Positions 7,645 through 19,096 of a stretch of 64,000 bases of DNA are shown piece after piece. Below the pieces are notes generated by a model. That model did no database searches and was not told the origin of the DNA. It worked only from the letters and a program-made list of their open reading frames with translations. The position numbers were made by a program, and so were the translations under genes. The DNA is taken from positions 558,001 to 622,000 of the forward strand of contig NZ_JAOVZO020000003.1 in NCBI RefSeq assembly GCF_025717065.2, in the 5' to 3' direction. How positions within the stretch are numbered: the first letter of the stretch is position 1; each line of letters starts with the position of its first letter. This DNA comes from Tahibacter soli (GTDB lineage: Bacteria > Pseudomonadota > Gammaproteobacteria > Xanthomonadales > Rhodanobacteraceae).

Positions 7645-8214
7645 ATGCTGTACCTCGCCTCGCAATCGCCGCGCCGGCGCCAACTGCTCGAACAGCTCGG
7701 CTTGGCGTTCGGCGTGCTCGACGTCGACGTGCCCGAAGTGCGCCGTGTCGGCGAACCGGCCGAGGACTACGTCAGCCGCGTCGCGCGCGAAAAGGCCGGT
7801 GCCGGTCTCATGAGCGTCGCGGCCGTGCCGGGCGCGGTCGTCATCGGCGCCGATACCGAGGTGGTGCTCGACGGCGAAGTGTTCGGCAAGCCGGCCGACG
7901 CGGCCGCGGCGGCGGCGATGCTCGCGCGCCTGGCCGGTCGTACGCATCGCGTGATTTCGGCGGTTTGGGCGGTCAGCGCCGGACGCGAGGATCACGCCGT
8001 GAGCGTTTCCGACGTCGGCATCGCGGCGCTCGACGCGACGGCGATCGACCGCTACGTCGAAACCGGCGAGCCTTACGGCAAGGCCGGCGCCTACGCGATC
8101 CAGGGTCGCGCCGCGGCGTTCATCGATCGTCTGTCCGGCAGCTACTCCGGCGTGATGGGATTGCCGCTGCACGAAACCGCGACGCTGCTGCGCCGCTTCG
8201 GCGTCTCGATTTGA
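7645..8214 (+). CDS. maf: Maf-family nucleotide pyrophosphatase
   Basis: Maf proteins hydrolyse non-canonical or canonical nucleoside triphosphates (dTTP, UTP, m7GTP) to monophosphates. The N-terminal signature [14 protein letters not shown] and the catalytic segment [10 protein letters not shown] are visible, as are the conserved KAGAYAIQG and [12 protein letters not shown]. The length is 189 residues. The start at ATG 7645 is chosen because GGGAG lies 10 bases upstream and the family begins [10 protein letters not shown]. An earlier in-frame ATG at 7615, overlapping the rlmH stop, would add ten residues. Confidence 0.93.
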
Positions 8215-8379: not shown

Positions 8380-8543
8380 AGTGGCCCGCAACTGTCGAAT
8401 CGCTGGCGTCCGGCTTGTTCTGCGAACGTCTGGCTTGGTCTTCACTCATCCGACAGTGGGTACTATCGGATTAGCTCCAGACCGGCGCCATCCGTCCGCG
8501 GCACTGCGCCGGCCATCTACCGCTTCAACAGTTACGGGCCACT
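8380..8543 (+). repeat. 164-bp structured element, copy A (before rng)
   Basis: The element aligns without gaps to 18427-18590; I count about 105 identical bases of 164. Its first 20 bases pair with its last 20 at 18 positions. A central hairpin sits at element positions 70-91 with loop GGGT. Compared with copy B, paired positions 8/157, 14/151, 16/149, 70/91 and 78/83 change together and keep pairing, while C-A mismatches at 10/155 and 17/148 are kept in both. It ends at 8543, one base before the rng GTG. No coding potential is seen. It could be a cis-acting RNA or a small non-autonomous mobile element. Confidence 0.85.
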
Positions 8544-8544
8544 A

Positions 8545-10032
8545 GTGAGCGAAGAAATCCTGATCAACGTCACCCCGCGCGAAACCCGCGTCGCGGTGGT
8601 CGAAAACGGCATGCTGCAGGAAGTGCACATCGAGCGTGCGCTGCGCCGCGGCTATGTCGGCAATATCTACAAAGGCAAGGTCAGCCGCGTCATGCCCGGC
8701 ATGCAGGCGGCGTTCGTCGAAATCGGCCTCGAGCGCGCGGCGTTCCTGCACGCGTCGGACATCGTGCGCGCGGCGCCCTCGCTCGTCGGCGACGCCGGCG
8801 AAAACGGCGGCGGGCAGCCGGCCGCCACGCCGCCGATCCTCGATCTCGTGCGCGAAGGCCACGAAGTGGTCGTGCAGGTGGTCAAGGATCCGATCGGCGG
8901 CAAGGGCGCGCGCCTGACGACGCACTTGTCGATCCCGTCGCGCTATCTCGTGCTGCTGCCGTATTCGCGCATGGTCGGCGTATCGGTGCGCATCGAGGAC
9001 GACGGCGAGCGCGCGCGCCTGAAGGAAACGCTGCAGGCGCTCGGCCGCGACAGCCAGCTCGGCTATATCGTGCGCACGAACGCCGACGGGCAGAGCGACG
9101 AGGCGCTGGCCGAGGACGTCGACTATCTCGGCCGCCTGTGGCAGGCGGTGCAGGAAGGCATCGCTGCGGCGAAGGTCGGCGAGCGCATCTACGAGGATCT
9201 GCCGCTGTCGATGCGCGCGCTGCGCGACCTCATGCGGCGCGACATCGAGAAGGTGCGCGTCGATTCGCGCGAAACCTTCGACAAGACGCTGCATTTCGCA
9301 CAGCAGTTCATGCCCGAACTCGTCGAGCGCATCGAACACTATCCCGGCGAACGGCCGATCTTCGACCTGTACGGCGTCGAGGACGAAATCCAGCGCGCGC
9401 TGAAAAAGGAAGTGCCGCTCAAATCCGGAGGCTATCTCATCGTCGACCAGACCGAAGCGATGACGACGGTCGACGTCAACACCGGCGGCTTCCTCGGCCA
9501 TCGCAACCTCGAGGAAACCGTCTACAAGACGAACCTCGAAGCGGCGCAGGCGGCCGCGCGCCAGCTGCGCCTGCGCAATCTCGGCGGCATCATCATCATC
9601 GATTTCATCGACATGACCGACGAGGAGCACAAACGCCAGGTTCTGCGCACTTTGGAAAAAGCGCTATCGCGCGACCACGCCAAGACGACGGTCTACGACA
9701 TGTCGCCGCTCGGCCTCGTCGAAATGACCCGCAAGCGCACCATGGAAAGCCTGGAGCGCCAGCTGTGCGAGCCGTGCCCCGAGTGCGGCGGTCGCGGCAG
9801 CCTGAAGACCGCCGAGACCGTGACCTACGAAATCTTCCGCGAGATCACGCGCGCGGTGCGCCAGTTCGACGCCGAGAAGCTGCTCGTGCTGGCCGCGCCG
9901 AAGGTCGTCAGCCGCATCCTCGACGAAGAATCGGCCGCCGTCGCCGAACTCGAGGAGTTCGTGCGCAAGACGATCCGCTTCCAGCCCGAAGAGCACTACT
10001 CGCAGGAGCAGTTCGATGTCGTCCTCCTGTAG
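8545..10032 (+). CDS. rng: Ribonuclease G
   Basis: Single-strand-specific endoribonuclease of the RNase E/G family, acting in 16S rRNA 5' maturation and mRNA decay. The 495-residue protein has an N-terminal S1 domain (GNIYKGKVSRVMPGMQAAFVEIG), the DNase I-like catalytic part with metal-binding aspartates in VDVNTGGF and IDFIDM, and the zinc-link CEPCPECGGRG. The length fits RNase G, not the longer RNase E. The frame is open to 8221, but alignment to the family (SEEILINVTPRET) fixes the start at GTG 8545, directly after the 164-bp element, with no clear ribosome site. The yhdP-like gene follows 27 bp later. Confidence 0.96.
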   Translation: MSEEILINVTPRETRVAVVENGMLQEVHIERALRRGYVGNIYKGKVSRVMPGMQAAFVEIGLERAAFLHASDIVRAAPSLVGDAGENGGGQPAATPPILDLVREGHEVVVQVVKDPIGGKGARLTTHLSIPSRYLVLLPYSRMVGVSVRIEDDGERARLKETLQALGRDSQLGYIVRTNADGQSDEALAEDVDYLGRLWQAVQEGIAAAKVGERIYEDLPLSMRALRDLMRRDIEKVRVDSRETFDKTLHFAQQFMPELVERIEHYPGERPIFDLYGVEDEIQRALKKEVPLKSGGYLIVDQTEAMTTVDVNTGGFLGHRNLEETVYKTNLEAAQAAARQLRLRNLGGIIIIDFIDMTDEEHKRQVLRTLEKALSRDHAKTTVYDMSPLGLVEMTRKRTMESLERQLCEPCPECGGRGSLKTAETVTYEIFREITRAVRQFDAEKLLVLAAPKVVSRILDEESAAVAELEEFVRKTIRFQPEEHYSQEQFDVVLL

Positions 10033-17075: not shown

Positions 17076-18428
17076 GTGAACCCGCAAATCGCCAATCAAG
17101 ACGCGAGCCAGGTCGAACTCGACCGCCTCGCCGAACTCTCGCAGGACGTGATCCGCCGCTGCATCGCCGCGGGCGCGAGCGAAGCGGAAGTCGGTGCGAG
17201 CGTCGATAGCGGCCTCGCCGCCAGCGTGCGCCTCGGCGAGACCGAAACGATCGAACACACGCGCGACCGCTCGTTCGGCGTGACCGTGTATTTCGGCAAG
17301 CGCAAGGGCTCGGCGAGCACCGCCGACCTCAAGCCCGAGTCGATCGCGCAGACGATCGAGCAGGCGTGCGCGATCGCGCGCTACACCGAGGAAGACCCCG
17401 CCGCCGGCCTCGCCGACCGCGAGCGCATGGCGCGCGAGTTTCCCGACCTCGACCTGTGGCATCCGTGGGACGTGAGCGTCGAGCGCGCGCTGGAACTCGG
17501 CCTTGCGATCGAAGACGCCGGCCGCGCGGTGGCGGGCATCACCAATTCCGAAGGCGCGTCGGTCGAGGTCGGTTCGACGCTGTCGGTGTACGCCAATTCG
17601 CACGGCTTCGTCGGCCGCGAGCGCGGCACGCGCCACATGCTGTCGGTCGCGCTGCTCGCCGAAGACGACGCCGGCATGCAGCGCGACTATTGGTACGACG
17701 CGGTGCGCTCGGCAGCCGATTTCATGCCGGCCGCCGAACTCGGCCGCAAGGCCGCCGAACGCACGCTCGCGCGCCTGGGCGCGCAGCCGCTGACGACGCG
17801 GCAGTGCCCGGTGCTGTTCGCGCCCGAAGTCGCGCGCGGCCTGATCGGCCATCTCGTGTCGGCCGTCAGCGGCGGTGCGCTGTATCGCAAGGCCAGCTTT
17901 CTCGTCGACGCGAAAGGCAAGCGCGTGCTGCCCGAATTCGTCGACATCGTGGAAGATCCGTTCCTGCGCCGCGGCCACGGTTCGGCGTCGTTCGACGCCG
18001 AGGGCGTCGCGACGACGAAGAGCGCGCTGGTCGAAGGCGGCGTGCTGCAGCGCTACGTGCTGTCGAGCTATTCGGCGCGCAAGCTCGGCCTCGCCTCGAC
18101 CGGCAACTGCGGCGGCATCCACAACCTCATCGTCAGCACCGGCGACGATGATTTTGCCGCAATGTTGAAAAAGCTCGGCACCGGCCTCCTCGTCACCGAA
18201 ATGATGGGGCAGGGCGTCAACACCGTGACCGGCGACTACTCGCGCGGCGCCGCCGGCTTCTGGGTCGAGAACGGTGCGATCGTGCATCCGGTCGAGGAAA
18301 TCACGATCGCGTCGAACCTCAAGGACATGTACGCGAACATCGTCGCGATCGGCAGCGACATCGATCCGCGCTCGCACATCAAGGTGGGTTCGATCCTGAT
18401 CGAACGCATGACGGTCGCCGGAGCGTAG
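17076..18428 (+). CDS. pmbA: Metalloprotease subunit PmbA (TldE)
   Basis: Partner of TldD in the peptide-degrading TldD/E complex. The 450-residue protein shows the family features DRSFGVTVYFGKRKGSAST and, near the C-terminus, MGQGVNTVTGDYSRGAAGFWVENG; the catalytic HExxxH is absent, as expected for this subunit. The start is GTG at 17076 with GAAGGA just upstream. Its TAG stop overlaps the first two bases of the 164-bp element copy B. Confidence 0.95.
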   Translation: MNPQIANQDASQVELDRLAELSQDVIRRCIAAGASEAEVGASVDSGLAASVRLGETETIEHTRDRSFGVTVYFGKRKGSASTADLKPESIAQTIEQACAIARYTEEDPAAGLADRERMAREFPDLDLWHPWDVSVERALELGLAIEDAGRAVAGITNSEGASVEVGSTLSVYANSHGFVGRERGTRHMLSVALLAEDDAGMQRDYWYDAVRSAADFMPAAELGRKAAERTLARLGAQPLTTRQCPVLFAPEVARGLIGHLVSAVSGGALYRKASFLVDAKGKRVLPEFVDIVEDPFLRRGHGSASFDAEGVATTKSALVEGGVLQRYVLSSYSARKLGLASTGNCGGIHNLIVSTGDDDFAAMLKKLGTGLLVTEMMGQGVNTVTGDYSRGAAGFWVENGAIVHPVEEITIASNLKDMYANIVAIGSDIDPRSHIKVGSILIERMTVAGA

Positions 18429-18590
18429 TGGCCTGCAACAGACAAATCGAAAGCAGCTCGCTCGTCCCGGCCGCGCAGAACTTGCTGCTCACTCGGCCGA
18501 TAGCGGGTGCTATCGGCGTCGCTCCGCAGCGGCGTCCTGCACGATGCGTCCTTCGCGATCCCTCTTCCGATTCATCTGTTACAGGCCACT
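18427..18590 (+). repeat. 164-bp structured element, copy B (before zur)
   Basis: Same length and a gap-free match to 8380-8543. The ends pair over 20 of 23 positions, and the central hairpin (CCGATAGC, loop GGGT, GCTATCGG) is perfect. It begins inside the pmbA stop codon and ends five bases before the zur ATG at 18596. Both copies have the same orientation relative to the following gene. The zur ribosome site is not obvious and would lie within the right arm. Confidence 0.85.
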
Positions 18591-18595
18591 AGCGT

Positions 18596-19096
18596 ATGAT
18601 CCCGGCCATGACGGCGCACGCGCACCCCAAGCACAAACACGGCCCGCACCAGCATCGGCACGATGCGCGGGGCTTCGTGCGCGCCGTGGCCGAGGCGTGT
18701 GAAAGCCGCGGCCTGCGGCTGACGCCGCTGCGCCTGCGCGTGCTCGAGCTGATCGCCGACAACGGCAAGCCGGTCAAGGCGTACGATCTGCTCGACAAGC
18801 TCAAGGACGAACGCGCGGGCGCGGCGCCGCCGACGGTCTATCGCGCGCTCGACTTTCTGCTCGAAAATAGCTTTATCCACAAGCTCGAATCGATCAACGC
18901 GTACGTCTCGTGCCACCACCCCGAGGAATCGCACCAGGTGCCGTTTCTGATCTGTGACGAGTGCGCGAGCGCCGTGGAGATCTGCGACGAGGGCGTGGCC
19001 AGGCTCCTCGGCGAGCAGGCGCGCGAGCACGGGTTCAAGCCGCGCGCGCAGACGCTCGAAGTGCACGGCGTCTGCGCCGACTGCGCGAAGGCGTGA
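18596..19096 (+). CDS. zur: Zinc uptake regulator Zur (Fur family)
   Basis: Fur-family metal-responsive repressor, 166 residues: a winged helix (about residues 40-100, with TPLRLRVLELI and PPTVYRALDFL) then a dimerisation/metal domain. Two structural zinc pairs are visible, CDEC at 120-123 and CADC at 160-163, plus the SCHHPEESHQ segment. A His-rich N-terminal stretch (residues 8-22) may bind metal. Zur rather than Fur is inferred from the Cys pairs, the His content and the ZnuD-like receptor with a Zur-like operator 7 kb downstream. ATG 18608 is an alternative start. The gene begins directly after element copy B. Confidence 0.88.
   Translation: MIPAMTAHAHPKHKHGPHQHRHDARGFVRAVAEACESRGLRLTPLRLRVLELIADNGKPVKAYDLLDKLKDERAGAAPPTVYRALDFLLENSFIHKLESINAYVSCHHPEESHQVPFLICDECASAVEICDEGVARLLGEQAREHGFKPRAQTLEVHGVCADCAKA

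Follow-up and report, generated by a model that had tools for sequence, protein, structure and literature searches.

A strand-specific rod fold in a probable IS630-type MITE of Tahibacter soli and in related elements

The window, that is, the whole 64,000-nucleotide stretch of Tahibacter soli DNA analysed here, carries two copies of a 164-bp element, which with a probability of roughly 80% is a non-autonomous IS630-type MITE whose rod-shaped fold, formed by one strand, is kept by compensatory change. The original prediction of an element present twice, at 8380-8543 and 18427-18590, was borne out in coordinates and length (164 bp each), the two copies aligning without a gap at 105 of 164 identical positions; since the best other ungapped match to copy 1 on either strand of the window reaches 69/164, the pair is beyond chance. 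All five base pairs said to differ on both sides between the copies (8/157, 14/151, 16/149, 70/91 and 78/83) indeed do so. The C-A mismatches reported at 10/155 and 17/148 are common to both copies, but on the minus strand they are G-U pairs, and the GGGT loop, present in both copies, is not invariant as had been supposed, since it varies in the wider family. The two sites and their neighbouring genes are listed below; both window copies are among the 41 rows from which covariance model R2 was built and among the 22 sequences in core model R3, from which the scores of elements and cores derive.

7645..8214, plus strand: Maf-like protein, upstream of copy 1 (NCBIfam TIGR00172, 148.5 bits, cut-off 117.15)
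8380..8543, minus being the well-folded strand: copy 1 of the mobile element, 164 bp (R2: minus 143.9 bits, plus 42.0)
8380..8392, plus strand: left terminal inverted repeat of copy 1, AGTGGCCCGCAAC
8410..8511, minus strand: structured core of copy 1 (R3: 91.3 bits, E 6e-24)
8531..8543, minus strand: right terminal inverted repeat of copy 1, AGTGGCCCGTAAC
8545..10032, plus strand: ribonuclease G, downstream of copy 1, its start codon touching the element (NF008689, 706.4 bits, cut-off 594; empty-site comparison)
17076..18428, plus strand: PmbA/TldE metalloprotease, upstream of copy 2, its TAG at the element border (NF008268, 518.9 bits, cut-off 438; open reading frame)
18427..18590, minus being the well-folded strand: copy 2 of the mobile element, 164 bp (R2: minus 185.8 bits, plus 52.6)
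18427..18439, plus strand: left terminal inverted repeat of copy 2, AGTGGCCTGCAAC
18457..18558, minus strand: structured core of copy 2 (R3: 89.3 bits, E 2.4e-23)
18578..18590, minus strand: right terminal inverted repeat of copy 2, AGTGGCCTGTAAC, then AG (CTAG)
18596..19096, plus strand: Zur/Fur-type regulator, downstream of copy 2 (NF008646, 142.7 bits, below the cut-off of 167)

Copy 1 is flanked by a Shine-Dalgarno-like AAGG and the GTG start of ribonuclease G at 8545, with a TA (8543-8544) immediately 5' of this GTG. At copy 2 the TA at 18426-18427 doubles as part of the TAG stop of the PmbA gene, and the Zur-type gene begins 5 bp past the other end. A match to the neighbouring genes was found in all but one of 30 relatives, of which 19 were read per window site, and both sites are empty in 19/19, seven of them congeners; the window copies are thus insertions. 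In the 6.65-Mb host genome the end motif with at most one mismatch occurs 58 times, compared with 16 for the reversed control, and the end pattern delimits 23 full copies outside the redundant small contig C2, 18 of exactly 164 bp and the others of 162-165 bp. A covariance-model search for further copies, proposed along with the original prediction, was carried out with model R1, built from host-genome copies. It located at least 25 places in the host genome outside contig C2 (two decayed copies included), at least 20 in Tahibacter aquaticus (G004), at least 10 in a congener (G005) and one or two in each of three further genus members, at least 9 of 61 genomes being positive, the host included; with the stricter filters of the multi-genome searches and only the best 45 candidates scored per genome, these counts are minima. 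Short, free of a transposase gene, bounded by terminal inverted repeats, multicopy and polymorphic in insertion, the element shows features by which a MITE is recognised.

According to gene calls made with a custom codon-usage script, 17 of 36 genus copies end exactly at the TAG stop of a called gene and none of the 36 lies inside one; 11 of the 35 classified copies are situated between convergent genes and the rest at other gaps, in both orientations. At tandem gaps of the genus the folded strand is antisense to the genes 16 times and sense 4 times (p 0.012), whereas no orientation bias was seen outside the genus (4 antisense, 6 sense, 4 convergent, 7/21 unclassified); being confined to the genus, this bias is left out as support. 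Some copies are shortened to 85-105 bp, with both ends kept and the interior deleted (L215:305-389, L216:305-409, L220:364-457, L237:221-313), and the host genome also contains solo right ends, likely remnants (near position 1501 in both L021 and L029), as well as a distinct repetitive palindrome of GAGTGA...TCACTC units (L031, G000:C1:73893-74053). The 6.5-kb contig C2 (G000:C2:757-1789, L049) and G000:C1:249381-250413 (L048) hold the same inverted copy pair with identical 20-base flanks, probably an assembly redundancy. An inverted pair of copies about 700 bp apart was considered as a composite transposon and rejected, no transposase being seen between the copies on reading the sequence.

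The ends of the element (CTAGTGGCCTGTAAC) match the ends of IS630-family elements found elsewhere, and on these sequence comparisons its assignment as a non-autonomous, MITE-type passenger appears well supported. Counted by eye over the flanks of the 23 host copies, T stands at -1 in 19 and A at +1 in all 23, C at -2 in 19 and G at +2 in 21, so that most copies are flanked as CT/AG...CT/AG; the left flank of copy 1 is GA, not TA. Measured between TA dinucleotides the element is about 162 bp long, and 168 bp if both CTAG are counted. In 21 of the 23 host copies a C occupies position 163, even where -2 differs from C, copy 2 being an example; this would speak for a duplication of 2 bp (TA within CTAG) rather than of 4 bp. 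TA or CTAG stands at most ends, and an exact TA duplication is putative, the relatives having diverged at the empty sites. A preference for TA within 5'-CTAG-3' was reportedly described by Tenzen and Ohtsubo in 1991. The element would insert at TA within CTAG, and roughly half of the copies inspected directly are placed at a TAG stop between genes. Insertion at TA with duplication of the target is given for IS630-family elements in a published account (PMC2170065).

The IS630 catalytic domain (PF13358) was matched in 10 of 21 carrier genomes, whereas the same search found no such transposase in the host genome. Three IS630 elements are of special interest with regard to their ends. L181 is 1,098 bp long and has an open transposase frame of 347 codons (NF033545, E 3.3e-75; PF13358). 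It is bounded by TAGTGGCCTGTAAC and TAGTGGGTTGTAAC at CTAG, one end being identical over 14 bases to that of the MITE, and its genome also carries a MITE of the window type (L068). L183, of the same genus, has the similar ends TAGTGGACTGTATC and TAGTGGACTGTCTC, and in L279, of the same order, both ends read TAGTGGACTGTAAC and the transposase shares 70% identity with that of L181. None of the three was located in the host genome, and the structured interior is absent from L181 and L183 (models R2 and R3) and from L279 (R3). Inspection by eye yielded no pair of window-type ends at the distance of an insertion sequence, either in six genus genomes with one mismatch allowed or, for exact ends, in 16 carrier genomes; likewise, seven IS630 copies of G005 had no matching end pair within three mismatches, chance-like matches in one copy aside. 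An IS630-family (Tc1/mariner superfamily) DDE transposase recognising GTGGCCTGTAAC-type ends would move the element in trans, and the clade of these IS630 elements presumably provides this mobiliser. A match to an insertion sequence end or MITE family had been regarded as a finding that could overturn the original prediction; such a match was found, but it applies by half, as the IS630-type ends account for the terminal ~14-28 bp and not for the covarying interior.

RNA folding of the plus strand with 5-nt flanks gave z = -4.7 for copy 1 and -4.5 for copy 2, none of 200 dinucleotide shuffles being as stable, but with the 14-nt ends fixed and the interior alone shuffled, copy 1 was again matched by 0/200 and copy 2 by 12/200, which is weakly special. 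On the minus strand the same test with fixed ends returned 0/100 for each copy (z -6.9 and -6.0), and this strand folds end to end. Single-strand structure was therefore rightly anticipated, and the better-folded strand is the minus strand, not the plus strand as originally read. Among 20 subfamily representatives, hand-picked from the extracted elements, the minus-type strand is the more stable in all 20, by 9 to 32 kcal/mol with RNA parameters, and again in 20/20 with DNA parameters. With ends fixed, none of 100 interior shuffles of the minus-type strand was as stable in any of the 20 (z -5.4 to -11.4), whereas on the forward strand three of the 20 had 5 to 12 equals among 200 shuffles. The difference between strands exceeds the shuffle mean in all 20, weakly so in L066 and L068 (z -1.1 and -1.5).

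Alignment A6 comprises 41 of the 49 rows of A5, the decayed or truncated L078, L079, L080, L210, L212, L213, L221 and L222 having been dropped before counting; A5 itself is without three of the 23 host copies (the second copy in L003, L041 and L043) and without genus copies that are shorter or longer, L205, L211, L214-L220 and L223 among them. Imperfect pairs in A6, read on the minus-type strand, comprise 272 G-U cells and 33 A-C cells; this excess is partly built in, since G-U was allowed when that strand was folded, and the shuffle comparison is the fairer test. The purine internal loops are kept, GGA in 37/41 and the opposite GA in 38/41, and GA/GA in 33/41 and 34/41. Over 47 pairs, 94.2% of cells are paired and compensatory changes occur at 30; double-change cells number 146, as compared with 32.8 ± 5.1 in shuffled and 16-21 in slid controls (partners shifted by 1-3 columns). 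The second alignment, A7, holds 22 core sequences, six with window-type ends and 16 without, the latter found by R2, which favours the R2 structure; here 31 of 35 pairs covary, with 190 double-change cells compared with 57.7 shuffled and 25-37 slid. Both structures were derived from the alignments on which they were tested, and the shuffles ignore relatedness. The structural selection read originally from two copies thus holds with more sequences, in both alignments above both controls. Given covariation together with preserved loops, selection on the interior as a folded single strand may be regarded as well supported.

A scan for perfect ends separated by 123-153 bp (total length 149-179 bp), run over 84,980 species genomes, returned 23 stretches from 16 genomes, labelled Acidobacteriota, Burkholderiaceae, other Betaproteobacteria, Lysobacterales, Chromatiales, other Gammaproteobacteria, Rhodospirillaceae, Deltaproteobacteria, Binatia and Eremiobacterota; many of the records are metagenome bins, so that the taxon labels may be wrong. 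Isolates carrying such elements are T. aquaticus DSM 21667, Polaromonas A23 and Paucibacter KBW04. The stretches contain 24 elements, 19 of them of 160-164 bp (full range 159-179 bp), in a scan whose demand for perfect ends and a length of 149-179 bp misses decayed copies and renders end variation invisible; a Chromatiales genome has copies of 195 bp, outside this range. Among the records, two inverted copies (L057:1-164 and L057:6926-7089) form the very ends of a 7,089-bp contig labelled Eremiobacterota, their outer borders coinciding with its limits, and L050, from an Acidobacteriota bin, is also 7,089 bp long. In 18 loci from the scan, R2 found 19 of 19 elements, each best on the expected strand (E ≤ 1.7e-8). 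The interior differs by lineage, and single folds give a similar rod with purine internal loops. Applied to 14 loci from outside the Lysobacterales, R3 missed the element in 10 and matched it weakly in four (E 0.0003-0.1); in view of this weakness outside the class, the shared architecture there is argued from single folds and from R2 matches that include the ends.

Within the class, R2 matched at least 19 of 369 genomes (best seven candidates per genome, stricter filters), and many of the matches cover positions 33-134 alone. This inner part of about 100 nt, the core, recurs in class genomes without window-type ends. Other CTAG-type repeats, of the CTAGCCCGCATTTCTCACC type (at most three mismatches), flank both sides of the core in seven of 16 such loci, among them L265, which spans about 250 bp end to end between the repeats; four of the others have no repeat of this type near the core, and five have weaker or one-sided ones. 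The repeat is abundant in some genomes, as in G339 with 107 and 109 matches compared with 0 and 1 for the control, and is absent from 5 of 15 core-bearing genomes. Three short elements bounded by it were folded (167, 168 and 175 bp, other spacings existing as well), the first two being close to the CTAG-to-CTAG length of the window element. Of the three, L284 alone is matched by the core model, which also finds the core at 75 bits in L289, a locus with a single CTAGCCCGCATTTCTCACC-type repeat. In L261:1501-1661 the core lies within a much longer near-perfect palindrome that has a terminator-like hairpin behind it; MITE ends were not recognised there. Across 398 genomes of the phylum at E 1e-5 (best ten candidates per genome, stricter filters, hence a lower bound) the core model matched only the host, one congener and, in a single other family, four genomes; with so few matches, the core proper appears patchy in distribution.

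Several ways of accounting for these observations have to be weighed. The element is a long imperfect palindrome, and in an ordinary MITE such a palindrome could be kept without any selection if template switching during replication copied one arm onto the other, yielding paired changes. Template-switch correction in quasi-palindromes is expected to give double changes. MITEs with stable stem-loop transcripts are also common, as stated in two reviews (PMC10969869, PMC2229807). This explanation is nevertheless rather improbable: correction should erase mismatches, yet the internal loops GCC/AA, GGA/GA and GA/GA persist in copies with different stems, and the combination of covariation and preserved loops argues against a mechanical process, as do the one-sided G-U excess (partly built in) and the strand difference seen in 20/20 representatives (weak in two). 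In the preferred reading the interior is more than filler: one strand, the minus strand in the window, folds into a rod with conserved purine internal loops, compensatory changes have preserved this fold while the sequence diverged to about 60%, and selection would act on the folded strand. We consider it most likely that the folded form would be an RNA produced by read-through and serving the element, for instance as an insert that is tolerated or processed within host transcripts. RNA is favoured only mildly over single-stranded DNA, in which form the strand might act during replication or transposition; we hold this for somewhat unlikely. The preference for the minus-type strand persists with DNA parameters, tandem G-A pairs are stable in DNA as well, and in its own genus most folded strands run antisense to the genes beside them. 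A 2024 survey also allows for DNA in the case of a similar motif (PMC11109978). On the other side, IS630-family elements cut and paste double strands (PMC2170065), and no dependence on the replication strand showed in ten elements of one finished genome, a small sample assigned by eye (4 leading-type, 5 other, 1 near the presumed origin).

Each window copy has one end no more than 6 bp from a start codon, so that a regulatory role for rng and zur, as a non-coding RNA of the host or as a cis-acting element, might be envisaged. The sites are, however, empty in all relatives read, which largely refutes it, other copies sit between convergent genes or in other gaps in both orientations, and the folded strand runs antisense to rng as well as to zur, leaving this reading with hardly any probability. 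Membership in a described repeat family also deserves attention, above all in MRSC-65-2, the nearest description found. According to the 2024 report, this motif is a single long stem with strong covariation and more than 20,000 representatives in diverse phyla, occurs dozens of times in a genome, in some cases close to a transposase, and is left open as to RNA or DNA (PMC11109978). The covarying long stem, the multicopy state, the diverse phyla and the possible link to a transposase are common to both. The window element differs in the described repeat UYCCGG, which is absent from both strands of 71/83 window-type elements (present in 12/83) and from the folded strand of 41/41 A6 rows, but present in 4 of 12 other-ended stretches examined (L263-L266). 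That the element belongs to MRSC-65-2 or another described family therefore seems to us improbable.

MITEs are usually viewed as passive debris between transposon ends. The conserved part of the IS630-type MITE preferred here is its interior, with a strand-specific fold that recurs without these ends and, at some loci, inside other repeats. As a tentative proposal, with the odds somewhat against it, one rod-shaped module of RNA or single-stranded DNA with a ladder of purine loops might be carried by several differently ended, CTAG-inserting MITE families, spread and conserved across several phyla for the folded strand's own activity, the ends being interchangeable and the fold conserved. A conserved interior of this kind makes it possible to ask by experiment whether a selfish DNA element relies on a structured RNA or on single-stranded DNA. 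Such dependence is known for some other transposon groups; we know of none for IS630/Tc1-mariner passengers.

With respect to known families, the expectation that no named family has this shape held for Rfam (release 15, gathering score), with no match in the window; relaxed searches returned 3 matches over 6 loci and 2 over 16, all below gathering and none on an element. Together with tRNA searches, these rule out a tRNA or a known Rfam RNA. Integron attC sites have the consensus RYYYAAC/GTTRRRY, which the element ends do not fit by eye. A phage or plasmid origin was rejected, copy 2 being without similarity in phages or plasmids and copy 1 in plasmids; 39 IMG/VR stretches hold one single end each, taken as chance. 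Literature searches for the two end motifs returned unrelated human studies at most, and those on MITEs, IS630 and structure returned general MITE work, apart from MRSC-65-2.

Among described elements, which were compared by their descriptions in the cited reviews, RUP of Streptococcus pneumoniae, found with IS630-Spn1, resembles the window element as a short intergenic MITE with IS630-like terminal inverted repeats and a TA target; it is 107 bp long and described from one species (PMC2229807), unlike the 164-bp, GC-rich window element with its end-to-end fold, kept internal loops and occurrence in many lineages. ERIC/IRU of enterobacteria are likewise intergenic MITEs with a stable long stem-loop, formed there as RNA (PMC2229807, PMC10969869); E. 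coli carries ERIC according to the same texts, and copy 2 had no DNA similarity in 5,426 E. coli genomes at E 0.1 in distant mode. Correia/NEMIS of Neisseria, again MITEs with TA termini and from another host, have stem-loop transcripts that were proposed as RNase III substrates (PMC2229807). The IS630/Tc1-mariner elements (NF033545, PF13358) share the same or similar terminal repeats and the CTAG target in L181 and L183, and similar repeats in L279; unlike these three, the window element has no transposase gene and possesses a structured interior.
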